This document shows, piece by piece, positions 13,359 through 53,110 of a DNA stretch of 64,000 nucleotides; within the stretch, counting starts at the first letter, position 1, and each line of letters begins with the position of its first letter. The notes under the pieces are model-generated. The model searched no databases. It had not been told where the DNA came from and saw only the letters and a list, made by a program, of their open reading frames with translations. Source of the DNA: a virus; IMG/VR virus record IMGVR_UViG_3300030117_007501, positions 62,001-126,000 of that record; one strand, 5' to 3'. The translations under genes and the position numbers were made by a program.

Positions 13359-13661
13359 GGGGGTGATCAGGTTTCGACAGGGTAAGGATAATAATACGTG
13401 CAAGGATGTGTGGGTAGGCACAGTAAAAATACCCAAAACTATAAATGCAAACGATGATATCGAAGCAATGGGGGAGGTGGCATTAGCCGCATAACCCAGA
13501 GGGTTTTCCAGATACCCTTCTAACCCAACATCTGGATTTGTTATATTTGATAATTTACATATTTGTGACTTATAGCTGTCTGAAGCTAGAATCAGACTAA
13601 CCTTGTGAATGACGTATTATTTGAGATGTTCTGGACGCGGGTTCGACTCCCGCCACCTCCA
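13359..13661 (+). ncRNA. ssrA: Transfer-messenger RNA (tmRNA)
   Basis: One-piece tmRNA. The tRNA-like ends pair as GGGGGTG (13359-13365) with CACCTCC (13654-13660), followed by discriminator A13661; CCA is not encoded. The 5' part has the conserved ATCAGGTTTCGACAGG, and the 3' T-arm is ACGCGGGTTCGACTCCCGC. The tag frame starts at GCA 13447 and reads ANDDIEAMGEVALAA then TAA at 13492-13494. Paired segments after it (CCAGAGGGTTTTCC with ATACCCTTC, and CCAACATCTGG) fit the pseudoknots. tmRNA frees stalled ribosomes and marks the product for ClpXP; the ALAA end suits that. Tags like this occur in proteobacteria, and phage copies are uncommon. Confidence 0.93.
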
Positions 13662-13671
13662 CTAACTTTTC

Positions 13672-17627: not shown

Positions 17628-17656
17628 TTGACATTTTATTATACATGAAGTATAAT
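17628..17656 (+). promoter_or_regulatory. Perfect sigma70 promoter
   Basis: TTGACA at 17628-17633, a 17-base spacer and TATAAT at 17651-17656. The start point should be near 17663, giving a short leader with AAAAGG before the ATG at 17680. It would drive the small gene, tilS, the tRNA and clpP with host RNA polymerase. Confidence 0.85.
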
Positions 17657-17679: not shown

Positions 17680-17856
17680 ATGAAAACAAGAAAATACATT
17701 GCAACATTTTACAACAAGTCTAGCGAAGAGCGTAGAGACATCGATTACGAAAGACTAACTTTCCCTGAAGCCTTTACTGCCGCAAACCACCAAAGGCTGG
17801 TTTGGGGTTACGGGTGGGAAATAGAGAAAATCTCGAAGGAACTATTAAGCAACTAA
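17680..17856 (+). CDS. Small protein of unknown function
   Basis: 58 residues from the ATG at 17680, which has AAAAGG 6 bases upstream; a TTG five codons earlier is less likely. The protein (MKTRKYIATFYNKSSEERRD) is mixed and charged with two Trp (VWGYGWEIEKI). No family recognised. First gene after a perfect sigma70 promoter, so expected to be expressed early. Confidence 0.65.
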   Translation: MKTRKYIATFYNKSSEERRDIDYERLTFPEAFTAANHQRLVWGYGWEIEKISKELLSN

Positions 17857-17874: not shown

Positions 17875-18492
17875 ATGATTCGAATTATAGGAAAAATACC
17901 ACGAAGAGTGACTGTTGCTTGCTCTGGTGGAATCGATTCAATGTCGATAGTCAACTTTCTACTGGAAGGTAGGAGAAAGGTGCATTTAGCCTATTTTAAT
18001 CACGACACTCCCCACTCTCGAGAAGCTGAACAATTTGTAAAAAGATATGCCGCAAAAAATAAATTAACATTAACTGTTGGAAGAGTTAAGGGTTCTCGCG
18101 GCAAGCAGTCCCTTGAAGAGTTTTGGAGAAATGAAAGATATAATTTTCTTACAAGCTTGGGAGATAATTTTGTTATAACATGTCACCATCTGGATGATGT
18201 TGTGGAAACATGGTTGTTTAAGTGCCTGCATGGAAATCCAGGCTTAATTCCTTACAGGAGGGAACCGAACATATATCGCCCATTCCTGATGACGGATAAA
18301 AATTCAATAATCTCATACGCAGAGAGAAAATCAGTTGAATGGATTGACGATCCTTCCAACAGGATGACAAAAAACATAATGAGAAATCACATTAGGCACA
18401 ATGTTATGCCTCAAATTTTAAAGGTTAACCCTGGAATAAGAACAACTATTCGTAAAAAATTAATTGAAAGTCACACTAAAGATAGTGTATAA
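17875..18492 (+). CDS. tilS: TilS-like tRNA-Ile lysidine synthetase, catalytic domain only
   Basis: 205 residues, roughly the N-terminal catalytic half of bacterial TilS (E. coli about 430). TilS uses ATP to join lysine to C34 of tRNA-Ile2, changing both its codon (AUG to AUA) and its amino-acid identity. Seen: PP-loop SGGIDS at 17-22, YFNHDTPHSREAEQF, SLEEFWRNERYNF, CHHLDDVVETWLFK at 103-116 and the family block IDDPSNRMTKNIMRNHIRH near the C-terminus. The C-terminal tRNA-binding domains of larger TilS are missing. The gene lies 9 bases before a CAU tRNA carrying Ile2-type identity pairs, so enzyme and substrate are encoded together. The start has only a weak ribosome site. Confidence 0.88.
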   Translation: MIRIIGKIPRRVTVACSGGIDSMSIVNFLLEGRRKVHLAYFNHDTPHSREAEQFVKRYAAKNKLTLTVGRVKGSRGKQSLEEFWRNERYNFLTSLGDNFVITCHHLDDVVETWLFKCLHGNPGLIPYRREPNIYRPFLMTDKNSIISYAERKSVEWIDDPSNRMTKNIMRNHIRHNVMPQILKVNPGIRTTIRKKLIESHTKDSV

Positions 18493-18501
18493 TAAAACAA
18501 T

Positions 18502-18578
18502 GGACCTCTAGCTCAATTGGTTAGAGCATCCGGCTCATAACCGGCAGGTTCACGGTTCAAGTCCGTGGGGGTCCACCA
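18502..18578 (+). tRNA. tRNA with CAU anticodon, probably tRNA-Ile2 (lysidine-modified)
   Basis: 77 bases with encoded CCA. Acceptor stem GGACCTC/GGGGTCC, D-loop AGCTCAATTGGTTAGAGC, anticodon loop CTCATAA (CAT at 18536-18538), T-arm CACGGTTCAAGTCCGTG. The pairs C4-G69 and C5-G68 are, as I recall, the acceptor-stem features by which E. coli TilS picks tRNA-Ile2 over elongator tRNA-Met. With tilS next to it, Ile2 (reading AUA) is favoured over Met. AUA is common in the phage genes, for example 4 of the first 5 Ile codons of the PhoH gene. Confidence 0.85.
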
Positions 18579-18606: not shown

Positions 18607-19245
18607 ATGGAAGACTTATATTGGACATCTGGTGGTCGCAAGAGAGACAAAGAGTTTCGAGACTCTGATGGAGGCTACGGTTCCGGCGGCGCGAATGGAG
18701 GAAACAGCAATAACATTGTAGATGTTTCAAATAATAGAATATTCTTCTATTCAACAGTCGATAGGGGGAAAGTGCTAAAGTTGAATAAAGCACTGCTTAG
18801 CTTGGGAATTAGCATGTCACATAGGGCACTTCACTTGGAGACAGACGTCGTACCGATTAGGCTCCACATTAATAGCTATGGAGGTTCCGTCTTTTCGGGA
18901 TTTGCAGCAATTGATTATATCCTACAATCAAAGGTGCCGGTACATACTGTCATTGATGGTTGTGCTGCCTCCGCAGCCACACTGATGAGTGTAGTGGGAG
19001 CAAAAAGATATATGCACAGGAATTCGTTTATGCTTATTCACCAATTGTCCAGTGGGATGTGGGGAACTTATCGACAACTTCAGGATGATATGGAAAATTG
19101 TGACGTTTTGATGGATAGGATTCGTGAAATATATAAGAGACACACTAAGATTCCTAAAACAAAGCTAAATGAACTACTTAAACATGACTTGTGGTGGGAT
19201 GCCGAGACTTGCCTCAAGTATGGAATGATAGATGAGATTATCTAA
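18607..19245 (+). CDS. clpP: ClpP-family serine protease
   Basis: 212 residues from the ATG at 18607 (AGGAGA about 12 bases upstream); the longer reading would start inside the tRNA. The catalytic triad by pattern is Ser122 in DGCAASAATLM, His145 in FMLIHQ and Asp194 in HDLWWDAE. INSYGGSVFSG at 88-98 is the oxyanion/substrate loop. Residues 1-36 are a Gly/Ser/Asp-rich extension (DSDGGYGSGGANGG) with no counterpart in the bacterial enzyme. In phages ClpP-like enzymes often act as head-maturation proteases, but this one lies with tilS and the tRNA, away from head genes. It could join host ClpX/ClpA to degrade proteins, including tmRNA-tagged ones. Confidence 0.88.
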   Translation: MEDLYWTSGGRKRDKEFRDSDGGYGSGGANGGNSNNIVDVSNNRIFFYSTVDRGKVLKLNKALLSLGISMSHRALHLETDVVPIRLHINSYGGSVFSGFAAIDYILQSKVPVHTVIDGCAASAATLMSVVGAKRYMHRNSFMLIHQLSSGMWGTYRQLQDDMENCDVLMDRIREIYKRHTKIPKTKLNELLKHDLWWDAETCLKYGMIDEII

Positions 19246-19559: not shown

Positions 19560-19716
19560 AGACAAGAGCATCGAAAAGCTCAAGATGGAGATTGAGGAAT
19601 TGATACGAGAGATAGACAGTGCAAAAAAGAAAAATTCACCTGCACACGCAAAGCGACTTAACTTAATTAAAGAAATGAAAGAGCGCAAGTTGCAAAATTG
19701 GATTAACGCCAGCTAG
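19549..19716 (+). CDS. 55-residue coiled-coil protein
   Basis: ATG at 19549 inside the end of the previous gene, with a weak AAGATAGAAG upstream; stop at 19714-19716. The protein is almost all charged helix (SIEKLKMEIEELIREIDSAK), a heptad-like coiled coil, ending KLQNWINAS. Its last 14 bases overlap the 3' end of the convergent protease gene on the other strand. Function unknown. Confidence 0.6.
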   Translation: MKNRDKSIEKLKMEIEELIREIDSAKKKNSPAHAKRLNLIKEMKERKLQNWINAS

Positions 19717-20584
19717 AAGTTTCTTTTGTTTTCCCGATATGTTCTCTTTTTCCTTTTGAATAAGCCTCAAGCGCCTCCCGGAGAAACAAGATAATATTAT
19801 CATATGTTGTGGATATCGTCATGTGTGTATATATCGTAGAAGCCGCAAAAACATTTCCAACCAACTCGAATCTAGAATTTAAAATAGGGCTCCCGGAACT
19901 ACCCCCGATGGCGGGGATAGTATACATCGATGCACCTATATCAGCCATGTAGCCGCTGTAATGTCCGGATAATATCGGAACTGCCGGTGGATGAAATATT
20001 CCACCCGGCGCCGCTATATTGTAGTACACATCTCCAAGCTCTGGGCCCTTGTTGGCAATTTTAAGAGCTTTTGATTCAGTCATCGATGGCGAGTGAATTA
20101 AGCACAAGTCAACACCTTCATCGAGCTTCATGAAGACTACGTAGGCGTCGTATACTTCGTTGTGGATAGACTTGAGCTTTATAGAGAAATTTAATTCTTG
20201 TATTGCCATTCCTGTTCTGTCAATCCCCTCACTAACATCGCATACATGAGCAGCAGTCAATATGAGGCTTCCTTTCTTCTTGTCGTTTAGAATAACGCTT
20301 CCGGAAGCACTAGATTTAAACGTTGCTCCCTTGATACAAGTGGTTCCGGAAACGGGAGTGCACTTCGAAACAGTGGCGTATTTGATTATTTGAACGAAAG
20401 ACTCAGTAGGGACTCTTTTCTTTTTTGGTAGTATATCCGCAAAGACATCGACTGAAGAATGGCATCCCGTGCAACTACCTGCAAAAATAAGACAAATCAA
20501 AGATGATAGTGTAATGTATTTGATTATTTTTTCAAATTTATTGGTAGTTTTTCCTTCCACAATATAACTATAGGTTATAATCAT
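19703..20584 (-). CDS. Trypsin-like serine protease, membrane or lipoprotein anchored
   Basis: 293 residues from the Met at 20584; the frame extends 32 codons further up without a convincing start. A basic start and hydrophobic core (KYITLSSLICLIFAGSC) with a lipobox-like A-G-S-C suggest a lipoprotein or signal peptide. The chymotrypsin-fold triad is His113 in LTAAHVCD, Asp159 in GVDLCLI and Ser230 in GGSSGSPILN. Several Cys outside the core (SKCTPVSGTTC, AHVCD) suit an oxidising compartment. It should cleave envelope or external proteins. This is the only minus-strand gene in the window and is probably a moron with its own promoter; it is convergent with one neighbour and divergent from the next. 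Confidence 0.85.
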   Translation of the reverse strand: MIITYSYIVEGKTTNKFEKIIKYITLSSLICLIFAGSCTGCHSSVDVFADILPKKKRVPTESFVQIIKYATVSKCTPVSGTTCIKGATFKSSASGSVILNDKKKGSLILTAAHVCDVSEGIDRTGMAIQELNFSIKLKSIHNEVYDAYVVFMKLDEGVDLCLIHSPSMTESKALKIANKGPELGDVYYNIAAPGGIFHPPAVPILSGHYSGYMADIGASMYTIPAIGGSSGSPILNSRFELVGNVFAASTIYTHMTISTTYDNIILFLREALEAYSKGKREHIGKTKETSSWR

Positions 20585-20621
20585 TAAAATATTAATGTTT
20601 TTCTTGACGGAGAGATTAAAA

Positions 20622-20825
20622 GTGATAGAATTTGTGAAAATATGCATGTTTTTGGTGTCCCCCATTACACTCAGCAACACGCCATGTGAAAAAATTGAAA
20701 AGTATTCCTATACCATTGATTTTATGGAGCAGGAGAGAAAACAAAATTTCAAAAAGAATCATCTAATAAAATTGCCTACTGAGTGGGCTAGAATTGAGAA
20801 AAAGCCAGTTAAAGCCTCTAATTAA
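20622..20825 (+). CDS. Small exported protein divergent from the protease
   Basis: 67 residues from the GTG at 20622, preceded by GGAGAG with a 7-base spacer. The N-terminus (MIEFVKICMFLVSPITLSNT) is a short signal peptide, followed by a charged body (EKIEKYSYTIDFMEQERKQN). TTGACG at 20604 and TAGAAT at 20626 form a promoter-like pair, which would start the transcript near the alternative ATG at 20646. It is small, exported and divergent from the trypsin-like gene, so it could be its inhibitor or partner, but no motif proves it. Confidence 0.5.
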   Translation: MIEFVKICMFLVSPITLSNTPCEKIEKYSYTIDFMEQERKQNFKKNHLIKLPTEWARIEKKPVKASN

Positions 20826-22432: not shown

Positions 22433-23075
22433 AAGGAACAGCTTCATAGAGAAGGTTCTGGGCAACACAATTGTGATAGCCAAAGATAAACTTCCCGACA
22501 ATGTTGACATTGACGTCGTGCTGTCAACACTGAAAAAGCTTGTGCCCTTGAGCTTCTTTCGCGATATTGATTCTATATATATAGGACAATTTCAACATCT
22601 GATAGACAGAGAAGTGCACGCTATGTATAGTGACGGCGCAATATACGTAACAAACAATCAGGCTAGCAGCACAGACTTGGTTGAAGACATAATTCATGAA
22701 GTAGCTCACTCTTTGGAGGAGAGCCACACTTCTGAAATATATGGCGATGGGAAGATAGAAAAAGAATTTCTTGCAAAAAGGCAAAAGTTGTATTTTATTT
22801 TAAAAGAAGAGGGGTACAACACTGAGCTAAGTTATTTTTTCGAAACTGAATACACGGAGGAGTTCGACTCTTTCTTATATAAGGAGGTTGGGTATCCGAT
22901 GCTTTCCGCCTTATCAGTTAATCTTTTTTATTCTCCGTATGGGGCAACATCTTTGCGAGAATATTTCGCAAACGGGTTCGAAGCCTTCTTTTATCATCGC
23001 GATGTGCACTATTTAAAAAAGGTGAGTCCAAATTTGTTTGACAAACTGCAAATAATAGCTTATAATAAGGAGTAA
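22410..23075 (+). CDS. HExxH zinc metallopeptidase-like protein
   Basis: 221 residues from the ATG at 22410, inside the end of the upstream gene. HEVAH at 96-100 within DIIHEVAHSLEESH gives two zinc ligands and the catalytic Glu. SLREYFANGFEAFF further on has a Glu likely to be the third ligand, an arrangement seen in anthrax-lethal-factor-like and other gluzincins. No signal peptide, so it acts in the cytoplasm or after ejection. Target unknown. It is the second metallopeptidase in the window (the other is at 5904) and the two are not obviously alike outside the motif. Confidence 0.78.
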   Translation: MKNYLQNRRNSFIEKVLGNTIVIAKDKLPDNVDIDVVLSTLKKLVPLSFFRDIDSIYIGQFQHLIDREVHAMYSDGAIYVTNNQASSTDLVEDIIHEVAHSLEESHTSEIYGDGKIEKEFLAKRQKLYFILKEEGYNTELSYFFETEYTEEFDSFLYKEVGYPMLSALSVNLFYSPYGATSLREYFANGFEAFFYHRDVHYLKKVSPNLFDKLQIIAYNKE

Positions 23076-41020: not shown

Positions 41021-44000
41021 ATGGCTAACATGAAAATACGAATTGTAAAAGGAGAAGTTTCAGCATCTGCCCTGAGAGCGTATTATTATGGCACATCAGT
41101 TGAAACCAGACAGCAAGACGAAGATCAGGGCATCAACACTATATCTCCCGGAGATGTATACACTTTTGAGTTCAAGTATAATGACATCGGCAAAGGAGAA
41201 TATAAGCTAGGCTACTCCGGAAAGGAGATGCTGGCGATAAAAGAATTTTTAGCCTCGGTGGTTGATCCAAGCACGTACAGGATAGAAGATAGGGGAATTT
41301 TCGGAGCCCGAAGAACAAGGGTAGCTTCAAGCGACGCAGAGGCGGCAACAGATAGGAATTCCCCTATATCGATGAGAGACGGATTTACTTTCGATGAAAA
41401 GACTCAAGCAGCCCTAACAATATGGCAAATGAACAACAGTGCCAGTATAAGAGAGTACGGAATTACTCATTTGGGTTGGACACGGGACGCAGACAGCCAT
41501 TACAGTGAAGAAATAGGCAGCTTTGGGCTAGCTTCATTTGCTATAGCTCACGGCTGGTCTCAGGGTAGAAAACATTTTTATGATGAGGGGTTTGGATCCC
41601 CGCCGAGCAAGGTTGACGCGGCAACAGAGCAGATAAGAGAAGCAATATCTCCAAACCCCCCTTCATCACCAAGCCGCCTACATATGGCTGCAACCCGAGT
41701 CGCTGATGTAATCCATGAGGCTGTCCCCAAAGACAACGAAGGTAGAGCAATTGAAACTGGGGAGCTGACAAAGGAACAACATCAGCAGCACGCACTATCA
41801 GAGTTGTCGACTCCAGAGCCTAGCGGCAATCAAGCGCCATGGGAAGATCCGTCCGGAAAGAGAATAGGCGTATTCGTTGATACTGATTTTACTTTAGAAA
41901 ATCCTCCTTCTTTTTCTTATGAGGAGGACATGATATCTTATCTTCTAATGAAGGAGCGTGAAGCGCTCGAGAAGGTGTTCGATCATTATGGAAAGGCAAG
42001 CACTTGGCCATTCCCGATAGGTAGAATGGTGAACGAAGAAGAGCCTACAATGTCCGCTTGGTATGATATAGAAGCCATGCCGGAAGCTATAAATGTCACT
42101 ATAGACGAAACTCCAGCCGGCGCCATGCGCTATGATCAATTTGAAGCGCGCTACTCTTGGGCACTTCGACAAGGTGCCGCAGCGAGAGGTAGAATACCTT
42201 TAGTGTGGGCGGAGGCAGGAGTTGTAATTACGCCGAAAGAGTGGAGGCTGGGCTTAGCAGCAACGCCAGATTTACCAGAAGAAGATAGATCGTCACAGCA
42301 CTTTACCGACATTGACGTTGTTGTTAGAGAAGTTTTTCGCGCTCCAAAAGCTCGTCCGGGTGATGTGTATAGGCTTCAGTTCTGGGTTAACAAAGGGATA
42401 TTGCGAGAAGGAGCATCATCAGGGGGAACTAGGTTTACACCAGCTGATGTTATAACTGCTGCAGTTGTTAATTACGAAAAGGCAGCTGGGGCAATTGATG
42501 CTGCCGGAGAGTTTCTGGAAAACCCTGGCGCTGCAGTAGAAGCATGGGTTGGAAAAGCCGAAGACAGAATAAATAAATCTGTCGACGCAGCTGAAGATTA
42601 TGTTCGCTCTAATCTGAGGTATGCTGATCAAAACAAGAAGAAGGTGGCAAGAAACGTTTGGAAGAAGTGGAGAGAAGACACCAGACGAAGGCAGGCGGAT
42701 CAAAGGTATGCTAGTGCCGAAGCCCGCGCTGCACAGATATTGGAAGCTAGAAAAAAGTCCGGCTTCCCAACTCCCTCTCACGTAACATATGAAGCTAGAA
42801 CATTCAAAAAGCACATAGAGGCTGTCGCCTCTAAGATGGATGAGTTTCAGAAAGAGTTGGTAGAGTGGCAAAAAGCCTCAGTTAAAAATGTAAAAACATC
42901 AGGAGGTTCGTTTGTTCCGGTGTTGGATTTGTCGGTGGAGGCTCAAAACTTACGAGACTGCATACCAGCTTTCGAAAGAATATTGGGAAGGAACGGATTC
43001 AAACTAAGAGACAAGTTTGGAGAATATATAAAAGTCTCCTACGTACCAGACAAAGATGAGACGTCCGCGAAAAACGTGCTAGGGGCATTGATAGCTACCA
43101 TGTCCTTTGTTCCTAGGAAGGGTGAAGGTGTTTTTGGTACTAGATCTGCATCAGCTTTTGTGGGAGGGGATTACCAGACAGACGAAGAAAGCGAAAAGAT
43201 GACAATCCGCGTGAAAGCAGGCGCTAGAGAGTTCGACTCGCACATAGAAGCAAAAAGTTTAGAAGACATATCTGATCCCGCCATCGTGAATAGGAGAAAT
43301 AGTCTCTATTCTAAACTTAAGCACCCCTTCAACAACCCAAGAACTCTGGCATACCTGATGCAGCTAGAGGAGATGTACAACTACATCAATAAGCCTGCCG
43401 ACTGGGGGAGCGACTGTAATGATGTTTTAATGCCAAAGTCCATTCCTTTTGCCATGCAGTTTACATATCCTCTACCTGGTATCAAGCCAAGAACTCCAGA
43501 TAACTATGGGAAGCCAAAGGAAGGGCCCGATTCGTTTGACAAGGCAGCGCTGCAAGTTGATGGTTCAATGCTTAAGATGATGGGCGAGATAAAGACTGCA
43601 AGTCAAGCTGTTTCGGAAAAGATAGCCATATCAGAGGAAGAAAAAGACGCTCTCCTAAAGGTGGAGCAGGGCAAGGTATATGACATAAACGATTTGCTGC
43701 CTCTCGGCGAATTGTGCACATGGGAAGAAATACAGCAAAAGGTGTTGAAAAAGTTTGACTTCAAAATGATGTTGTGTGAGTGGGCACAGTGTTTAGCTAT
43801 CCCCTGGCCTATTGAGTTTGATTGGGATTTGAACTTTGACTTCGACTGGCCAAAGATTCCAACATTTGATTTATACATGTTGTATCCTATAATTGTAGCA
43901 AATCTCCTAGAGATGCTGATAAGACTTCTTTGTACAATAATTATGAAGCTGTTGGATATGATAAGGTTGCCGAATTGTGATGACTTGTTCGACGCTGCAT

Positions 44001-47000
44001 TGTACGGCATATCGTCTATAGCAAACGCAGTAGAGGAGTACCACAACCAAAAGGACGGAGAAGGGGGTATTGTACTCTTTAATGCAACTTCCGGAGTTAA
44101 TCCTATAAATGCTGAATTTTTGAAACTGATAAAGGCGCAAACTCCCGGACAAGCAGAGGCTCAAAAAAGATTCATACAAAACTTGGCAGACTTTGGAGTA
44201 TCTGCAGAATACATGGAAGACAATAATCTTGACGGTGAAACTGTCTCGGCTCTTTTCGAAGATGTATCGAGAATTTTGACTCCTACAGAACTTTGTGCTC
44301 TTTTGCAGGGAGCGCTTAACCACGAAACAGTAGAGTTGGTAAGAAGTCTAATAATATCAACCCAGCCGTCATTAGCATCCTTTTTCAGAAATGATACAGC
44401 GGTATCTCAGTTCTTCTCCTCTCTTGGAGGCTTATTGGGGCAAGAGATATGCGATATTGTCAGTAGAGCCCCCGCCGAAGCGATGTCTTCCGGAAGGTGC
44501 GATGACGGCACTAACTTGAGAGACTACTTGGCAGCTGGCGGTGCCGACGCTCAACAGATAGCTAACGCACTAGCTATAGCCAAAGCAGAGGCAGATAGAA
44601 GATTGGCAGTCGCCAACTCACTAGCAAGTTCAAATCCGCTGGATGGTGTTGTACCAAAAAATGTAGTAGATTTTTCAGATCCTAATGCTGTTATTTCAGA
44701 TATACCACCTGCTTTAATGAATCAACTGTCAAATGGGGTATCATCTATAATAGGAACAGTCAAGGGAACGTATTTGCAGGAAATAACAAGATATGTCCCA
44801 TCTCTATATGATACTGACTCCCGAGCAATGAATTTTCTAGATCCTGAATTTAACATATTTTTTAGAATTCAGGCGGAAATAGCAATGAAGATATTAATGG
44901 ACTTTGAAAGTCAAACTCCCAAACTGCTCTCCGATATGCCGCTACCTAAGTGGGAGGCTAGAAATTCTCTGTACACCACATACAGATACAATTTTGAAGG
45001 ATTCCAGAGGCAATTGATTCCGATGCCATTTTCTTCGCCACCCTATCGAATTGAGTATAAGGAAACAGTAATTGAAGTTCCAAACGCTTTTGAAACGAGT
45101 GGCTTGCCTGGTTCGAGCTATCGAAGTCTAGAAGACTGGCTTCAGCAGAGTAATCTCATGTCTGACGAGGGCAGTCCAATGGGGCAATTTGTGCTAAGAA
45201 CAGTGTTGGATGACGAGGAGGGAGTAATACTAGAAGAAGACACCTCAGTCCAAGAGCATCCAGAACTGGGCCCAAAGCTTATATCTGCAACTATGTTATC
45301 GAAAACTGAGCCACAAGACGGTTCCATATTGTTTGGCGATGATGACTGGCAATATACAACTAAATATGGAAAAGTTAAGTCCGCTAGCGATATTGCAAAC
45401 ATACAATTGGCGGCAGACGGACGCTACGGTGAAGCAGGTGAACCAACTGCCGTTGCTGACTTTATTAAAGAAGTTATGGATGATGTAAAATCTCGACTAA
45501 ATGAGCTTCAAATGCATATAATGAGAGATTTGGAGGTTAACCATAAGCAAAGGGTGGAGTCTAATATTGCACCGGATGTCAGGAGATTGATATTAAAGGA
45601 AGAAGAAATAAAGAGAGAACAGCTACCAGCAACTCTAGAGAGAATTTACGGGCCCGCCGCTGAGGTATCCAACTTGGAGCATTTTTATGCGGATGAGGAA
45701 GGGTTCAGGATGATGATCCCAGAAGTCGTGGACAACGAAGGCACTTCTTATGATGCAGATATAACCTATATAGAATATCCCGCAGACTCTCAAAATAGGA
45801 ACGTAGTCTCAACGGTTATTCGAGATAACGTCGTACTTAAAAACAGTCAGCAGGACGCTGCGACAATTATAAGAGTTGACGAGTGCGATGAATCTATTAT
45901 CGAGCTAATAAGAGAAGATTATCCCGATAATACACCTTCTTTGTTTGAAGATTTCACTATTCCTCCGGGCAAAAATCAGCGTCCCGAGTCTTTATTTCAC
46001 CTAACAAAGAAGAATTTTGAATTAGATTATCAAAGATACGGGCTCAATAAGCCAGACATGCTCGAAAGAGGTTCGAATGCTTTTCCATTGTTTCACGACT
46101 ATGTGTATACTGGCTTGTATAAGCATATGCAAGAAGTCATTTTCGAGAAAGTTTTTGATCAACTAGCTTCAAGTCCAATGTTTGATCCGGAAGAGTTGAG
46201 AAAGATAGATAATAGACTCAGAGGAAAGGCAGAGATAAGCCCAGAGGGTTGTTTGAGGTTGTCTGAAGGCTTAATGAATTTTGATAGGTTAATAAAGAAT
46301 GCCACAGACATGGTGAGAGAGGAGTTTAAGAAACCTGAAAACGCACTAGCAAATAGAGATTATTCAGATCCAGGCCCGTTTGAACAAGGTGTTTTAACCG
46401 CCTTAGTTAGCTTGATGGTGGATGTCCTATTGGTTGAGATAGCCATGAGAGGCGGCGTAGCCTTTTCAACCTACAGTACGGAAAAACTCTTAAATGATAC
46501 TGTGTTCAGGGAGTACATTCTCAAGTTTATCGATTCAAGCGTACTCGATATATCGAGAATGGGATTCGATTACGGATCCGCCTATGATGTCTTTTATAAA
46601 AAATTGGGATCCCTGTCTGGTATGCCTGTTGGCACCGATAGTCAAAGGAGAGCAGCATTATTGGAGTTCTTGGCTCTTAAGCTGTGGAATGCGGACAATA
46701 CATCGTCGGTTAGAGAAACCAGCCTTACTGACGAGGGTGTTGCTATAGCGCAAAGAATAGATAAGGCATTTGGCACAAAAACAGATACTTTCTCCCTGGA
46801 CGATAGCTTTAAGATTGTTCCCGTTTCTAGATGGATACCAAAAACTGATCAATTGTGGCAGAAATATAGAAACTTTTCGCACACAATGCCCTCCGCGACC
46901 CTGGAAATAACTAGGTATGATAATACACCCCCAAACCTAATTGAAACAGAACAAGAGTTCCTCTTGTCGCCGATAAAGCTTCCCCATCTTGATGATGTTA

Positions 47001-50000
47001 AGAAGAAGGGAAGATTTTATATTGAGAATTATATAAGAATCATCGGGCCCGGCGCTAGCAGTCTTGAGGGTGATGAGTTTAAGTTTGGGCAAGAGTTCCA
47101 AGAATTTAGAAGGACTTTGAGAGAACAGATATTCATTGCATCATTGGGCAGTCCTCACTTGGCATCGTTTGGCCAGGTAGACTTCCAGTTGGATCGCTTC
47201 GAAGCACAGGTGGAGAGAACCAACACCGCTGTAGGCGAAATAGAAGATAGGCTTGAAGAGCTTGAGGTTATGGAGCCGGTACGTATAGCCGATGACGATA
47301 ATTATTTAACCGTAGATCCTCCAACTGCTCCCGTGGGACAATCGCAGGAATTGGTTAATTCAACTGAGTTGGTTGATTTTATCCGAGCTTCATATCACGA
47401 AGGCTTCGATAAAGAGATGTGTGATATTGTTGGAGCTATATATTCGGACAACCCTCTAGATCCGTGTTACATGTCTCCAAAATCAAATTATCGATTTCCA
47501 ACAAGGCTTATTAAGAAAAGAAGAAAGTTTTTAAAAATACGCCCAAACAACTCATCGACATATAATCTCGGCCCTGCAGATGTTGCCGTAGAGGACGGTT
47601 CCCACATAAGCTTATTTATGCAGGCTCATCAATACAAGGAAGATAATTCCCGATGGGGCGTGCAGGATTCTAACAACAATTCTCCATGGGAATATTATTC
47701 TGTTCCTGCAAATGTATGTGAAATATCAAAAAACTACAGAAACATAGATAACCCGGAAGAAGACACATTTGTCAATATCTTGAATCAGTTTGCACCAGTC
47801 GAAGGCGAAGATCCACGTGCCCCGAGCGATAGGGCGGATATAATTATATCTCTAGAGGTAAAGGATATGGTGGATAAAATATATGCTCTAGAGCCTCTCG
47901 AAATGCCAGAATTTCCAGATAGGGATCATTACAACGGAGGTGAGGCGATAGTTTCATCGATGATGAATCAGTTCACTCCGATAGGAAGAGTCCGCCTGGT
48001 GACTGGTGGTAAAGTGGGGTATAGATATCCATACCGCCCTTCGGAGGTAAACGACAAAGAAACATACCCTAGGCTTAAGAGCGGACTAACAATAAAGAAA
48101 GTACAACTTTTAGATGATGAAGCTATCCCGTATGAGGTGGACGGCGAGACTGAGTGGCATCCACTCGATCCAGATGCGCCATGGATACGTGCAGGTTGGG
48201 GTGACGTCCTCGATCAAGAACGGTTTGGAGGTAGATCTTTCCATAATCTGGGCAAGTTAACGGAAGAAAGATTCGAATATCACAAAGAAAGAGGGCACTT
48301 AATAGAAAACTCTCCGGAAACACCGGGCTTGGGACGTCCAAAGGGCATATATGAAGAGTGGACAGAGTATGTGATAGATCACGAAATGTATGTCTTCGAT
48401 CATCCGGGAGAAAGTTGGCACCACCCAGATGAAATGCCGGCACTGACGTCATTGGTGATGTCTAAGATAGCGCAGTTTACTGCTATCGACGAAAACACCG
48501 GCCGCCCTAACGTCCTCGGGCGGTCTGTTTTCGCTCCAAGTATGTATAGTGGCCAAAACAGAGGCCTGCGCGCTCCACGTGAACAATGGTCCAGGCAAAA
48601 CAGGCCAAGTCGATACCGTGCTGATGAACATGCCGCAGTGATGAGGGCTTGCGATCACGAAAATCCGGGCACTCATTATCCAAGAGTGTACTCCACGACG
48701 TTCACTGCACCTAGGAACACGCGTACCATGGAACGAAATTTCAACGACACCGGCACGGCGAGCCCTGTCTTCCTCGCGTTGGATCAATATCCGTTTGGAG
48801 GAAATCATGCCATCACAGAGCATAATTCCTTCAGGAGGCTTCCGAAAAATTCTCGCCCCGACTTGTTTAATCCGGGAGCATGGTATCCCGGTGCACACAT
48901 GAGTGATGGTCAGTGGTCAGAGGGCAGTAGTTTAATAGCTAACAGAAGCAAATCAATGTCTTTTGGATACGTATTGTCTCGCCCAATGGGACACTCAAAA
49001 GCTGGTCAAGCGCCTGCCGGCCCAGAGAATTCTCGAGAATTGAGGGCTAATCAGTACGCTGTCCCAGTAAGGATGCTTGTAACGAAAGTAGATTATAAGC
49101 AGGATATGTATGACGAACAAGGAAACGTAACAAGATCTCAGATACTACATTCAGAAAGCTTCATCAACTATGAACTCCCAGAGGCAGTAAAGGGGCTGGG
49201 GCACAATGAGGGTGAAATAGTTGAGCATGATTTTTCATCTCCTGTAAACGTACAACGAGGACAAACAGTTAAGCCTGCCTTGGCAAAAATGAATTTTGAT
49301 AGGAAAACCTCCCTGCAAAGAGGGTTGAATCAGTTGGCTTTTGAATACTGCCTAGGGGGCACCAGATCTAATTCGTTGCGAGATTCCAATAGGGCAAGGA
49401 TGTTCGCTCATTATGGCTGGCCAGCTCGCGGAGTCGTGAACCCCGAAGGCGAAGTATTCCAGAGGTTTCAAAAGAGAGTTCACGCATGGATAATGGAGCC
49501 CGACAACGAACAAGCGCCTCCAGACTCCCTTCGATGGGAGGACATCTGGCCTGACGACCCACCACCCGCTCAGCGATCGCCAAATCCTGCAAACTCCTAC
49601 TACAATGAAGCGAAGCGGGCTATGGAGCGAATTCGCGACGATAATCGAGGCTCTGGAATTCAACAATTGCGGCGCCGCGAAATGTTCGTACGAGAAAACT
49701 TGCTAAACAATCCATTACACCCAGATTATGACATCATGGGCCGGATCGGTGGTGGGATGGACGATGTTGACGGAGCCGACATAATGCACCGCCATTGGAT
49801 AACTCACATGCGCAGATTCGAGCCCGGTACGACAGCTAACATCGAATTTTTAGAGGCAATATGGAGAGGAAGATTTCAGCCCGGCAATTATGGTCCGGAC
49901 AACGACTCTAGTTATCGCGGCGGCCATTTGCCTTTCATAGGTGAAAAGATAACACTAACTAAGTTTACTGAAAATGGATTAATAGGACAAGAAGAAGATA

Positions 50001-53000
50001 ATCAAGCATCAATTGTAACATCAGAAATCAGAAACCCCTTGTGGAATCCAGATGATTTTACTGGAATGTTTGCTGATGAAATCCACATGGAGCTATTATC
50101 TATATCGGCAGACACGCATGGAATCAGGCCGTTCAGTCAGTACTATACTACTGAAGCCGCACGCACCACACGTCGTGGATTGCAGCCCGAAGAGGTATCG
50201 CACGGCCCAGCACTATCTGTTTCGAAGGTATATAGTGCTGGCGCACACCAAGAGGCAAAGCATAAGTGGTGGGGTAAAGGTAGCCCATATGACGGCGAGT
50301 ATATCTATGATCCTGATGACAGAGATGATCCTTACAAAGCAAAACTAGATAACTTGTTTTACAAAAAAAGAAGAGGAGTCCTTCTTAAACAATCGACTTT
50401 GGGCACACCATGGTTTAGGGCATTGAGTGATCCAAACGCCAACAGCCAAGAGCTTAAGGGGGAAGTTACTAGGTTTCTGGAGTCTTACGTAAATTGTAGA
50501 AGATACGAAGGTTTTTGGGGGAGGACTTCTAGTCCATGGTGGCTGTGGGGTGCACAGGGCTATTATCCAGGCGCCAGAGGCGCGGATTGGACATTGCAGA
50601 CTACAAGCCGCGATCACCTCGGAAGAGAACAAGTCAGACCCATCAATATGTCTGAGGAGCGGGGCAAATATGAGAACAGTTATAGGCTGCATCTCCAATA
50701 TGACGCTTCAGATATAGTAGCATATGTGGTGGAGAAACTATTGACTCGCCCAAACCGTGATGAACCTGCAGCCGATGAAAGCAATTGGTTTGACGGACAC
50801 AGAGGGCACTATGGAGGAAATGTAAATGTTCACCGTGGGTATGGTCCATACGAGTGGTATAGAACTACTAATAATGTTTACTCTAACCGATACGACGTCG
50901 ACCCTGAAAACGTAGCAAGGCAAGATTCCATGATGGCAATTCAGAGTTTATATACGAATGATATAGTAGCTGTCTTTAGGCAATTGGGAGATTGGAATTG
51001 TCAAGCCGTAAAACACTTCGTTAATGCATTCCCAAGGGTCCAGGGCGTACGCCGCATTGATGACGCCGATGAAGACATAAGTGAAATCGTTCAGGATTAT
51101 CTCGGCCGATCTGAGACATTTACAACCTGGCTTAGTGATATAATTCCCGAACCTCAAAAACAGCCGGGCTACAGGAAGGGCGCCAAGAACGCTGGAGCAA
51201 TGTCGATAAGCTGGGATTATCAATATAAGAGATGTTTTGACAATGATCCGACAATCCGAACCTGGCCAGATTTGTGGGATATGGTACATCTCGTTGGATA
51301 CGGCGCAGGCTGGGCATTGATGTCATACGGGGGCAACGACGGCGGCGTGCCCGATGATTCTGAACACCATAACAACATTATCATGCCTAGCCAGTGCTTT
51401 AGTTATGTGCAGGGCGACGCAAATCACCCACAAGTACTGCCGGCAGAAAATAGGCATGAATCATTTATGAGTCCGTTTAACATTGTTGTTCCGGAAATGA
51501 CAAGCACAGAAAGGATAAATTATGGACAAGAAGATTCGCCAAGAAGAGAACCATCTGCTGGTGGAGTAGGGGAAATAGTCTTTGGGGATTACCAATTTAT
51601 AGACTCACCAGACATGGCAACAGCCGATATGTGGAATTTTGAAAGCAGGAAGATGCTAGATGGGACTGGGGACAAAGAGGCGAAAATAACTGCCGCAGCG
51701 GACAATAACACACTAGCTGATGGGTTCAACATATATGCTGCAAATGCTGCGATAAACTTACTACTGAGGGCAGAACAAGAAGAGAGGTACTTTTGGTCAC
51801 AATTAAGTCAATTTGGCACTGGAGAATACAATCCAGAAGGAGAGCCTATAGGCATATTCGAAAGTTTAAATAGGAGGCTGTCAGCTGAGATGTCTAGGCG
51901 CCTTGAAGTGTTGTTTGGGGAAACAGAATACCTTGTTGGATCTAGGCTCGTGTATATAGTCCCGGAAGATACGGATCCGAATTTTGGAGATTCCGGAGAG
52001 TTTTGGACACAACACGGCGAAAACCCACAAGATGAATATAGAGATTTTACAGAAATAACTCGAGAAGAAAGAACCTGGATGGTAACTGTAGAGGATGAAT
52101 CAACTGGGCAGTGGTTTAGATCTAGGTGCATCCCACTGGCATTCAATGAAGTCCCAATAGATATGAAGTGCCACTATACTAGATTTCAGAATGAAATAGC
52201 TTCAATGAGTGCAGAAGTCCTCAGTGGACTTAAGCAAAAGCCTGAGTATAGAATGTTGTCGAAATACGCTTTCCCAGTCGAGAGGTATGCAAGCATATCT
52301 AGTATATATTCTTTGATGGCGCTCTCTCAAAGAGAACAAGTCAGAGATACTCTCAGCAATACCAAGGCTAGTATAGCAAAGCTGATGAAGCTGATGTCAG
52401 AGCGTCCACCGTTTGGAAACACGATTGAGATTATGGATGGAGGCGTTTTTAGATCTGTGTTTATGGGCTCGATGAGTCCTGATGGGCCAGTAGGCTTGCC
52501 AAGCTTCATGATGGCTAAGTTTGGAGACTTCATATCTGATTTGGCGTACAACGCAATGATGACGCCACCATGGTTGATAAGATCTTTAGCATCTGGCTTA
52601 GATCCTGCGTTCAAAGACATGAGAAAGCTAGCAATGAACCCTCAATGTAAGATAGATGGAGTCAACTGGAAGAATGTCACAAAGACAGCACTTGATAACA
52701 AGATGGTTAAGGGCGTAGATACCAAGAATAGAACCTATGCACCAGTCAGTACTGCATTTCCCGCAGATTTATTCTATCGAGGTACCCAGATATCGCCTCC
52801 GTTTGTTAATAAGAATTTCTTTAAAGCATTGGTTAAGTTCGCTAATTTTGTTGCAAAAGACAACTTGCCTCCTCCTCCGAAGATTAAAGCCGGCGCAAGA
52901 TCGGCAGACACTGCAGAATACGATAAGTTGGTGGCAAGAGTGAACGATAGATACGGAACTTTCTTGGGCCCATTGGGGCTAATCGCTCTAGGTATACCGC

Positions 53001-53110
53001 CGATGCCAGGAGAGGCAGATATGTACGGCGAAGACGCCGGTTGTCCTCCGCCAGGCTCCGAAGAGGAAGAATACACACGCCCAGAGCCATGTCCGGACAT
53101 TGAAGAGTAA
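41021..53110 (+). CDS. Giant virion protein, 4,029 residues, baseplate/tail region
   Basis: One uninterrupted frame of 12,090 bases, beginning 1 base after the spike-like gene. It lacks the long coiled coil of a normal tape measure. The N-terminal 1,000 residues mix beta parts and helices (GSPTP-type linkers, a helical KVARNVWKKWREDTRRRQAD stretch). Around residues 950-985 is a hydrophobic segment (LYMLYPIIVANLLEMLIRLL) that could insert in a membrane. Residues about 2,370-3,480 differ in base and amino-acid use (many Trp, Tyr, His, Pro and CGN-coded Arg). The end is acidic and Pro/Cys-rich (CPPPGSEEEEYTRPEPCPD). The position before gp25 and gp6 suggests a baseplate hub or periphery component, perhaps ejected. 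Function unknown. Confidence 0.8.
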   Translation: MANMKIRIVKGEVSASALRAYYYGTSVETRQQDEDQGINTISPGDVYTFEFKYNDIGKGEYKLGYSGKEMLAIKEFLASVVDPSTYRIEDRGIFGARRTRVASSDAEAATDRNSPISMRDGFTFDEKTQAALTIWQMNNSASIREYGITHLGWTRDADSHYSEEIGSFGLASFAIAHGWSQGRKHFYDEGFGSPPSKVDAATEQIREAISPNPPSSPSRLHMAATRVADVIHEAVPKDNEGRAIETGELTKEQHQQHALSELSTPEPSGNQAPWEDPSGKRIGVFVDTDFTLENPPSFSYEEDMISYLLMKEREALEKVFDHYGKASTWPFPIGRMVNEEEPTMSAWYDIEAMPEAINVTIDETPAGAMRYDQFEARYSWALRQGAAARGRIPLVWAEAGVVITPKEWRLGLAATPDLPEEDRSSQHFTDIDVVVREVFRAPKARPGDVYRLQFWVNKGILREGASSGGTRFTPADVITAAVVNYEKAAGAIDAAGEFLENPGAAVEAWVGKAEDRINKSVDAAEDYVRSNLRYADQNKKKVARNVWKKWREDTRRRQADQRYASAEARAAQILEARKKSGFPTPSHVTYEARTFKKHIEAVASKMDEFQKELVEWQKASVKNVKTSGGSFVPVLDLSVEAQNLRDCIPAFERILGRNGFKLRDKFGEYIKVSYVPDKDETSAKNVLGALIATMSFVPRKGEGVFGTRSASAFVGGDYQTDEESEKMTIRVKAGAREFDSHIEAKSLEDISDPAIVNRRNSLYSKLKHPFNNPRTLAYLMQLEEMYNYINKPADWGSDCNDVLMPKSIPFAMQFTYPLPGIKPRTPDNYGKPKEGPDSFDKAALQVDGSMLKMMGEIKTASQAVSEKIAISEEEKDALLKVEQGKVYDINDLLPLGELCTWEEIQQKVLKKFDFKMMLCEWAQCLAIPWPIEFDWDLNFDFDWPKIPTFDLYMLYPIIVANLLEMLIRLLCTIIMKLLDMIRLPNCDDLFDAALYGISSIANAVEEYHNQKDGEGGIVLFNATSGVNPINAEFLKLIKAQTPGQAEAQKRFIQNLADFGVSAEYMEDNNLDGETVSALFEDVSRILTPTELCALLQGALNHETVELVRSLIISTQPSLASFFRNDTAVSQFFSSLGGLLGQEICDIVSRAPAEAMSSGRCDDGTNLRDYLAAGGADAQQIANALAIAKAEADRRLAVANSLASSNPLDGVVPKNVVDFSDPNAVISDIPPALMNQLSNGVSSIIGTVKGTYLQEITRYVPSLYDTDSRAMNFLDPEFNIFFRIQAEIAMKILMDFESQTPKLLSDMPLPKWEARNSLYTTYRYNFEGFQRQLIPMPFSSPPYRIEYKETVIEVPNAFETSGLPGSSYRSLEDWLQQSNLMSDEGSPMGQFVLRTVLDDEEGVILEEDTSVQEHPELGPKLISATMLSKTEPQDGSILFGDDDWQYTTKYGKVKSASDIANIQLAADGRYGEAGEPTAVADFIKEVMDDVKSRLNELQMHIMRDLEVNHKQRVESNIAPDVRRLILKEEEIKREQLPATLERIYGPAAEVSNLEHFYADEEGFRMMIPEVVDNEGTSYDADITYIEYPADSQNRNVVSTVIRDNVVLKNSQQDAATIIRVDECDESIIELIREDYPDNTPSLFEDFTIPPGKNQRPESLFHLTKKNFELDYQRYGLNKPDMLERGSNAFPLFHDYVYTGLYKHMQEVIFEKVFDQLASSPMFDPEELRKIDNRLRGKAEISPEGCLRLSEGLMNFDRLIKNATDMVREEFKKPENALANRDYSDPGPFEQGVLTALVSLMVDVLLVEIAMRGGVAFSTYSTEKLLNDTVFREYILKFIDSSVLDISRMGFDYGSAYDVFYKKLGSLSGMPVGTDSQRRAALLEFLALKLWNADNTSSVRETSLTDEGVAIAQRIDKAFGTKTDTFSLDDSFKIVPVSRWIPKTDQLWQKYRNFSHTMPSATLEITRYDNTPPNLIETEQEFLLSPIKLPHLDDVKKKGRFYIENYIRIIGPGASSLEGDEFKFGQEFQEFRRTLREQIFIASLGSPHLASFGQVDFQLDRFEAQVERTNTAVGEIEDRLEELEVMEPVRIADDDNYLTVDPPTAPVGQSQELVNSTELVDFIRASYHEGFDKEMCDIVGAIYSDNPLDPCYMSPKSNYRFPTRLIKKRRKFLKIRPNNSSTYNLGPADVAVEDGSHISLFMQAHQYKEDNSRWGVQDSNNNSPWEYYSVPANVCEISKNYRNIDNPEEDTFVNILNQFAPVEGEDPRAPSDRADIIISLEVKDMVDKIYALEPLEMPEFPDRDHYNGGEAIVSSMMNQFTPIGRVRLVTGGKVGYRYPYRPSEVNDKETYPRLKSGLTIKKVQLLDDEAIPYEVDGETEWHPLDPDAPWIRAGWGDVLDQERFGGRSFHNLGKLTEERFEYHKERGHLIENSPETPGLGRPKGIYEEWTEYVIDHEMYVFDHPGESWHHPDEMPALTSLVMSKIAQFTAIDENTGRPNVLGRSVFAPSMYSGQNRGLRAPREQWSRQNRPSRYRADEHAAVMRACDHENPGTHYPRVYSTTFTAPRNTRTMERNFNDTGTASPVFLALDQYPFGGNHAITEHNSFRRLPKNSRPDLFNPGAWYPGAHMSDGQWSEGSSLIANRSKSMSFGYVLSRPMGHSKAGQAPAGPENSRELRANQYAVPVRMLVTKVDYKQDMYDEQGNVTRSQILHSESFINYELPEAVKGLGHNEGEIVEHDFSSPVNVQRGQTVKPALAKMNFDRKTSLQRGLNQLAFEYCLGGTRSNSLRDSNRARMFAHYGWPARGVVNPEGEVFQRFQKRVHAWIMEPDNEQAPPDSLRWEDIWPDDPPPAQRSPNPANSYYNEAKRAMERIRDDNRGSGIQQLRRREMFVRENLLNNPLHPDYDIMGRIGGGMDDVDGADIMHRHWITHMRRFEPGTTANIEFLEAIWRGRFQPGNYGPDNDSSYRGGHLPFIGEKITLTKFTENGLIGQEEDNQASIVTSEIRNPLWNPDDFTGMFADEIHMELLSISADTHGIRPFSQYYTTEAARTTRRGLQPEEVSHGPALSVSKVYSAGAHQEAKHKWWGKGSPYDGEYIYDPDDRDDPYKAKLDNLFYKKRRGVLLKQSTLGTPWFRALSDPNANSQELKGEVTRFLESYVNCRRYEGFWGRTSSPWWLWGAQGYYPGARGADWTLQTTSRDHLGREQVRPINMSEERGKYENSYRLHLQYDASDIVAYVVEKLLTRPNRDEPAADESNWFDGHRGHYGGNVNVHRGYGPYEWYRTTNNVYSNRYDVDPENVARQDSMMAIQSLYTNDIVAVFRQLGDWNCQAVKHFVNAFPRVQGVRRIDDADEDISEIVQDYLGRSETFTTWLSDIIPEPQKQPGYRKGAKNAGAMSISWDYQYKRCFDNDPTIRTWPDLWDMVHLVGYGAGWALMSYGGNDGGVPDDSEHHNNIIMPSQCFSYVQGDANHPQVLPAENRHESFMSPFNIVVPEMTSTERINYGQEDSPRREPSAGGVGEIVFGDYQFIDSPDMATADMWNFESRKMLDGTGDKEAKITAAADNNTLADGFNIYAANAAINLLLRAEQEERYFWSQLSQFGTGEYNPEGEPIGIFESLNRRLSAEMSRRLEVLFGETEYLVGSRLVYIVPEDTDPNFGDSGEFWTQHGENPQDEYRDFTEITREERTWMVTVEDESTGQWFRSRCIPLAFNEVPIDMKCHYTRFQNEIASMSAEVLSGLKQKPEYRMLSKYAFPVERYASISSIYSLMALSQREQVRDTLSNTKASIAKLMKLMSERPPFGNTIEIMDGGVFRSVFMGSMSPDGPVGLPSFMMAKFGDFISDLAYNAMMTPPWLIRSLASGLDPAFKDMRKLAMNPQCKIDGVNWKNVTKTALDNKMVKGVDTKNRTYAPVSTAFPADLFYRGTQISPPFVNKNFFKALVKFANFVAKDNLPPPPKIKAGARSADTAEYDKLVARVNDRYGTFLGPLGLIALGIPPMPGEADMYGEDAGCPPPGSEEEEYTRPEPCPDIEE

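Follow-up and report, generated by a model that had tools for sequence, protein, structure and literature searches.

A single-domain viral TilS encoded beside a probable tRNA-Ile2 in an AUA-rich phage

A catalytic-domain TilS next to a CAU tRNA

Does a phage that encodes a TilS-like enzyme beside a CAU tRNA supply its own means of reading AUA as isoleucine? The question is raised by a 64,000-nucleotide stretch of viral DNA (bases 62001-126000 of a 158-kb IMG/VR virus contig; hereafter the window), in which 9 bases separate the stop of a tilS gene from the start of a tRNA gene (Table 1). The original prediction for this locus, a 205-residue TilS followed at that distance by a CAU tRNA carrying C4-G69 and C5-G68 in its acceptor stem, was borne out by TIGR02432, ARAGORN and Rfam.

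Table 1. Positions of the cassette and of other features within the window
Feature	Position	Strand	Description
tmRNA gene	13359..13662		complete; tag ANDDIEAMGEVALAA; RF00023, 126.7 bits
sigma70-type promoter match	17628..17656	+	TTGACA-17-TATAAT, 12/12 consensus; predicted, upstream of the cassette
small ORF	17680..17856	+	58 aa from ATG; between promoter match and tilS
tilS	17875..18492	+	205 aa, ATG start; single-domain tRNA(Ile) lysidine synthetase, catalytic N-domain only
tRNA (CAU)	18502..18578	+	probable tRNA-Ile2, that is the LAU precursor; 3' CCA encoded; ARAGORN, Rfam
ClpP-related head maturation protease	18607..19245	+	neighbour after the tRNA, outside the kit
trypsin-like peptidase ORF	19703..20680	-	325 aa, amid plus-strand genes
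second TTGACA-17-TATAAT match	23038..23066		perfect; with the match at 17628, the only two in the 10 kb scanned
three consecutive ORFs	24185..28391		matches to phage glycosyltransferase/GtrB-like families
large ORF	41021..53110		4029 codons

In a profile search, the tilS ORF scored 116.7 bits against the TIGR02432 model of the TilS N-domain (curated cut-off 93.6), and it also matched Pfam ATP_bind_3 (6e-31). Membership in TtcA or another PP-loop family was ruled out, TtcA falling far under its own profile cut-off, and the 158-kb contig yielded no other PP-loop homologue. The protein carries the motifs SGGIDS, CHHLDD and DPSN; S17, G18, G19, D21, S22, H104, H105, D108, E111, D159, N162 and R170/R174 are invariant in 63 viral TilS sequences, and the same residues of the PP-loop, HH-DD-E and D-SN...RN..R motifs align to 1wy5, 3a2k and 1ni5. 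An AlphaFold model built from the 63 viral sequences (mean pLDDT 95.6, pTM 0.91) had as its top PDB fold matches the TilS of Aquifex aeolicus (TM 0.81-0.84, E 9e-15), also in its ATP- and lysine-bound form, and that of Escherichia coli (0.82). By family, fold and intact motifs, the 205-aa protein is TilS, with predicted activity.

The A. aeolicus (1wy5, 2e21, 2e89) and E. coli (1ni5) enzymes share the catalytic-domain fold and motifs of the phage protein, but comprise 311-433 residues with one or two C-terminal tRNA-reading domains, of which the phage enzyme has none. In an alignment, phage TilS stops at residue 205, directly after the N-domain and where the C-terminal domains of cellular TilS start, in keeping with the earlier suggestion that it lacks the C-terminal domains of larger enzymes. 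Because the protein stops there, it is, judged from the alignment, neither type I (two C-terminal domains) nor type II (one). Other virus-encoded enzymes, namely the tRNA(Ile)-lysidine synthetase of Dasosvirus (a giant virus of eukaryotes, BFVD) and the 349-aa TilS of Ralstonia phage RsoM2USA (PMC8504454), are larger and were remote in the fold search.

The CAU tRNA resembles tRNA-Ile2

Rfam (65.7 bits, E 4.5e-13) and ARAGORN both called a complete CAU tRNA, which forms a complete cloverleaf with U33, A37, A38 and A73. Across 16 distinct relatives, 97.0% of stem cells were paired and double-sided stem changes numbered 48, compared with 16.3 +/- 3.3 in shuffles; these relatives showed changes on both sides of pairs 3-70, 7-66, 29-41, 31-39 and two T-stem pairs, and slid registers of the alignment were all at most 52% paired. 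Pair 4-69 is C-G in all 16 relatives and pair 5-68 in 15, the remaining one having U-G. Among distant linked viral tRNAs, C4-G69/C5-G68 is not conserved, and pair 4-69 occurs as C-G, G-C, A-U or U-A.

Besides the two acceptor-stem pairs and A73, the window tRNA has U12-A23 and C29-G41. The E. coli and gammaproteobacterial determinant G27-U43 is missing (U27 and C43 in the window), a feature reported as not general across bacteria (PMC12069591). Similar CAU tRNAs occur without tilS in many phages. The tRNA-Ile2 (CAU) of T4-like phages carries IleRS signatures and is up to 88% identical to the window tRNA, the value reached with an annotated tRNA-Ile of one such phage (H48); lysidine modification of T4-like phage CAU tRNAs was predicted in 2006 (PMC1524935). 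At the threshold used, tilS had no match in T4-like isolates with tRNA-Ile2, so these phages presumably depend on the host TilS. Together with the comparison with tRNA-Met below, these features make the window gene a probable tRNA-Ile2.

Linkage is fixed in one clade and recurrent elsewhere

Our IMG/VR alignment search returned at least 575 viral relatives of TilS, and the best 80 loci were analysed. Wherever the TilS among these 80 was at least 61% identical, a CAU tRNA lay 11-25 bases downstream of tilS (24/24 loci, representing 17 clusters at 90% identity, plus the window). No other tRNA occurs in the analysed stretch of any of these 24 loci, and on five contigs of the group measuring 104-175 kb the CAU tRNA is the only one of the whole contig. 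Beyond this close group, nine of 15 tRNAs within 100 bases of tilS were CAU tRNAs, compared with 19 of 170 other tRNAs (Fisher p 3e-5, with related loci counted individually), some lying upstream and others downstream of the gene. A chance adjacency is ruled out by the 24/24 linkage and the CAU enrichment elsewhere, and the search for tilS beside CAU tRNAs in other viruses, proposed with the original prediction, thus yielded such pairs throughout the close group and in excess among distant loci.

Elsewhere the arrangement is variable. Many viruses have no CAU tRNA within 10 kb of a single-domain tilS, the CAU tRNAs of the huge phages LR745206 and LR756502 are distant from tilS, and the linkage character changes state at least eight times on the TilS tree. 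In three sampled sister contigs (L081, L093, L094), a tRNA-Leu(UAA) replaces the CAU tRNA in the adjacent slot. Overall, Leu(UAA) and Ser tRNAs were seen 15-44 bases after tilS in L081, L093, L094 (at 10636) and L092 (at 10647), showing that tRNAs other than CAU can occupy the slot. Linkage is therefore fixed in one clade, recurrent elsewhere and non-obligatory. Saccharibacteria, in which tilS also lies beside CAU tRNAs, were rejected as a precedent, as the acceptor stems look like those of Met tRNAs. At loci L061, L065, L072-L075 and L079, the CAU tRNAs near or adjoining tilS combine a long variable arm with a D arm like that of tRNA-Leu.

The C-terminal tRNA-reading domains are missing from every sampled viral TilS, all of which measure 186-214 aa from the match start (the shortest begins within the domain). 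Among the 80 best matches in bacterial and archaeal species genomes, by comparison, 74 of 78 complete ORFs have at least 279 aa. Of the four shorter cellular matches, one is a broken frame, one is an ORF of 200 aa from a Flavobacteria record, and two come from MAG/SAG contigs (L099, L100) and place inside the viral TilS clade. In a quick tree with limited sampling and long branches, viral TilS (195-214 aa) fell on one side of a branch with an SH-aLRT of 99, against 16 bacterial rows, and on this tree forms one supported clade. A single-sequence search with the TilS of locus L053 matched only that same protein.

Phage TilS (MIJ3/PA5oct, RsoM2USA) and phage tRNA-Ile2 (T4-like) are each already known separately. 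In the searchable literature, outside which most subscription journals lie, neither the recurring pair of enzyme and tRNA genes nor the clade of single-domain viral enzymes appears to have been described. The TilS of the Arenbergviridae MIJ3 (gp263; PMC6892783) and PA5oct is likewise single-domain, with about 203 aa and 44-46% identity, and PA5oct further resembles the window phage in its AUA-rich genome and the presence of CAU tRNAs. In contrast to the window, these phages have three CAU tRNAs located 7-10 kb from tilS, within a 12-tRNA cluster. As far as the accessible text of the MIJ3 report goes, the role proposed for the enzyme is maintenance of host viability, and the enzyme is not tied to a tRNA (PMC6892783).

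AUA is overused in the window and aligns with isoleucine codons

The frequent use of AUA noted in the original prediction was confirmed by codon counts. Of every 1000 Ile codons in the window, 565 are AUA, more than the other two codons combined and more than the 421 (42%) expected from fourfold-degenerate third positions; among all codons of the window its frequency is 36 per 1000. Over the whole contig it accounts for 30 per 1000 codons and 48.5% of Ile codons. Log-odds against expectation were +0.58 for the window and +0.35 for the whole contig, and PA5oct, with about 47-50 AUA per 1000 codons, reached +0.56. T4, unlike the window phage, avoids the codon (21% of Ile codons versus 38% expected; log-odds -0.83), and two distant relatives of the window phage without a tilS match stood at about -0.1. 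The mean of the window's group was about +0.1, and most other tilS-bearing loci were strongly negative; an AUA excess accompanying every linked cassette is thus unsupported, the excess being confined to the window's group, the unlinked PA5oct and a few others. Within the window, 132 of the 214 Ile codons in the large ORF of 4029 codons are AUA, a considerable burden of this codon for one very large protein.

Complementarily, we compared AUA sites with homologues codon by codon in 41 genes of the contig. With the homologues' own AUA excluded, AUA sites aligned to AUU/AUC in 35.6% and to AUG in 3.8% of cases; control AUU/AUC sites in the same alignment gave 36.7% and 3.5%, respectively. AUA sites thus behave like other Ile codons, which argues that AUA is decoded as Ile in this phage. 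A reading of AUA as Met, whether through an unmodified tRNA or through reassignment, was ruled out for this phage by the same alignment. Decoding of AUA as Leu in the distant viruses that carry a CAU tRNA with a long variable arm likewise found no support: AUA sites in L061, L065 and L072-L075 align with Ile, and L079 has few AUA sites.

The original prediction had supposed a host in which AUA is rare. This argument holds for PA5oct, because its host Pseudomonas aeruginosa uses 0.9 AUA per 1000 and has a slow TilS (PMC12514573); for the window phage, it can be made only by analogy with PA5oct.

A model for the cassette and competing explanations

We consider it likely that the cassette enables the phage to make and lysidinylate its own tRNA-Ile2 for AUA decoding, with charging by the host IleRS. 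The tRNA gene would give a tRNA-Ile2 precursor with a CAU anticodon, in which the single-domain TilS would use ATP and lysine to convert C34 to lysidine, as expected from established TilS biology (PMC11938285, which also provides the precedent for charging of CAU tRNAs). Host IleRS would then charge the lysidinylated tRNA, so that AUA is read as Ile, and joint expression of the enzyme and the tRNA would serve AUA decoding in a phage that uses AUA more than any other Ile codon. The steps that we infer are that the enzyme is active, that this tRNA receives lysidine and is charged by the host IleRS, that both genes are transcribed together and that the phage benefits. A lysidine-bearing phage tRNA-CAU has been measured in a T4-like vibriophage (reviewed in PMC13191261). 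No IleRS gene was found on any of nine contigs of the window's group, which are possibly incomplete, and host IleRS therefore most likely charges the tRNA; charging and t6A37 modification must be host-supplied. The AUA kit originally proposed is backed by the linkage of TilS to a probable tRNA-Ile2, the conservation of this linkage in relatives, the AUA excess and the alignment of AUA sites with Ile, while its self-containment was wrong in this detail. The further idea that the enzyme is specialised for this one tRNA remains speculative, as the same enzyme occurs in the many viruses without a nearby CAU tRNA.

Several observations speak against this model: the pair is not obligatory, linked cassettes outside the window's group show no AUA excess, three sister contigs carry tRNA-Leu(UAA) in the adjacent slot, and the tRNA is only slightly nearer to E. 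coli ileX than to metT. The missing C-terminal domain also counts against it. In E. coli and Burkholderia cenocepacia, acceptor-stem nucleotides tell tRNA-Ile2 from tRNA-Met and the C-terminal domain contacts the stem; residues of that domain were reported as essential for lysidinylation in these type I enzymes (PMC12514573), yet the phage protein has none of them. The likeliest candidate solution is that tRNA-Met is rejected by recognition of the anticodon arm combined with co-expression of enzyme and tRNA. A role of C4-G69 as a signal read by the phage enzyme is weakened, the reading domain being missing and the pair varying in distant linked tRNAs. Because of this missing domain, and because both pairs vary across the wider family, C4-G69 and C5-G68 may instead serve IleRS/MetRS or the host TilS.

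Three other explanations were weighed against the preferred reading of a phage-made and phage-modified tRNA-Ile2. That the enzyme mainly supplements host TilS on the host tRNA-Ile2, with the phage tRNA as one more substrate and a linkage that reflects convenient placement among tRNA genes, not a dedicated kit, would fit the many viral tilS genes that have no CAU tRNA within 10 kb, the non-CAU tRNAs that fill the adjacent slot in some viruses, and the finding that TilS enzymes of AUA-poor bacteria are among the slowest published (PMC12514573). We nonetheless regard it as unlikely, given that linkage is invariant in the window's group, where the CAU tRNA is often the only one on the contig, and that adjacent tRNAs elsewhere show a strong excess of CAU. 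It appears highly improbable that the tRNA belongs to the elongator tRNA-Met class, with a TilS-like protein that is decaying or acts on another target. ARAGORN does label the gene tRNA-Met, because CAU alone cannot separate the two classes, and its identity to E. coli metT (69%) is near that to ileX (72%). However, pairs 4-69, 5-68, 12-23 and 29-41 together with A73 fit tRNA-Ile2, whereas metT has U4-A69 and A5-U68; the best-matching E. coli genes carry a tRNA-Ile annotation, the T4 AUA-class tRNA-Ile shares C4 and C5, and the tilS motifs are invariant.

Rated lowest of all, with only a slight chance of being correct, is a counter-defence function, in which the lysidine-bearing phage tRNA and its enzyme would replace or protect a tRNA that a host anticodon nuclease destroys. 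Compensation for host tRNA loss is a known role of phage tRNAs (reviewed in PMC13191261) and the cassette has a tmRNA gene about 4.5 kb upstream, but neither a nuclease target nor a repair gene is associated with it here, and the AUA excess is a sufficient translational reason.

More tentatively, and at somewhat less than even chance of holding in all its parts, the data may point to a broader picture: a separate minimal viral TilS lineage that chooses tRNA-Ile2 through the anticodon arm and enzyme-tRNA co-production without an acceptor-stem-reading domain, cassettes that have arisen repeatedly in phages, and one clade that thereby shifted AUA from an avoided to a preferred Ile codon. Should the enzyme prove active, few known TilS enzymes would be smaller, and lysidinylation with rejection of tRNA-Met would be possible without the C-terminal domains thought to give specificity. 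A 205-residue protein and one tRNA would then form a testable system for the question of tRNA recognition, and the phage would supply not only a tRNA but also the modification on which its meaning depends, instead of borrowing that modification from the host. With the cassette, it could also be tested clearly whether codon usage is driven by the tRNA-modifying enzymes that phages encode.

Genomic neighbourhood of the cassette

The 58-aa ORF preceding tilS has weak homologues upstream of tilS in three relatives (L019, L022 and L039; tblastn, 31-40% identity, E 1e-11 to 8e-6). Of 18 group members, 17 have the head protease gene less than 900 bases downstream of the tRNA. tmRNA genes were present in seven of 11 contigs of the window's group, the window contig included.

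Upstream of tilS in relatives (L027-L040, L047-L100 and L186-L207), a TATAAT-like -10 hexamer ended 5-8 bases before the start in 31 of 65 viral tilS genes, compared with 90 of 1554 other ORFs; restricting the control to genes with an upstream gap gave 21 of 50 versus 74 of 865 (related loci were counted individually in both comparisons). Shine-Dalgarno-like motifs were in turn rarer before viral tilS (12% versus 41%). The tilS mRNA is accordingly predicted to be leaderless in these relatives; the window's own tilS has no such start-proximal hexamer. Farther downstream, the three consecutive ORFs with glycosyltransferase and GtrB-like matches suggest a sugar-modification cluster.
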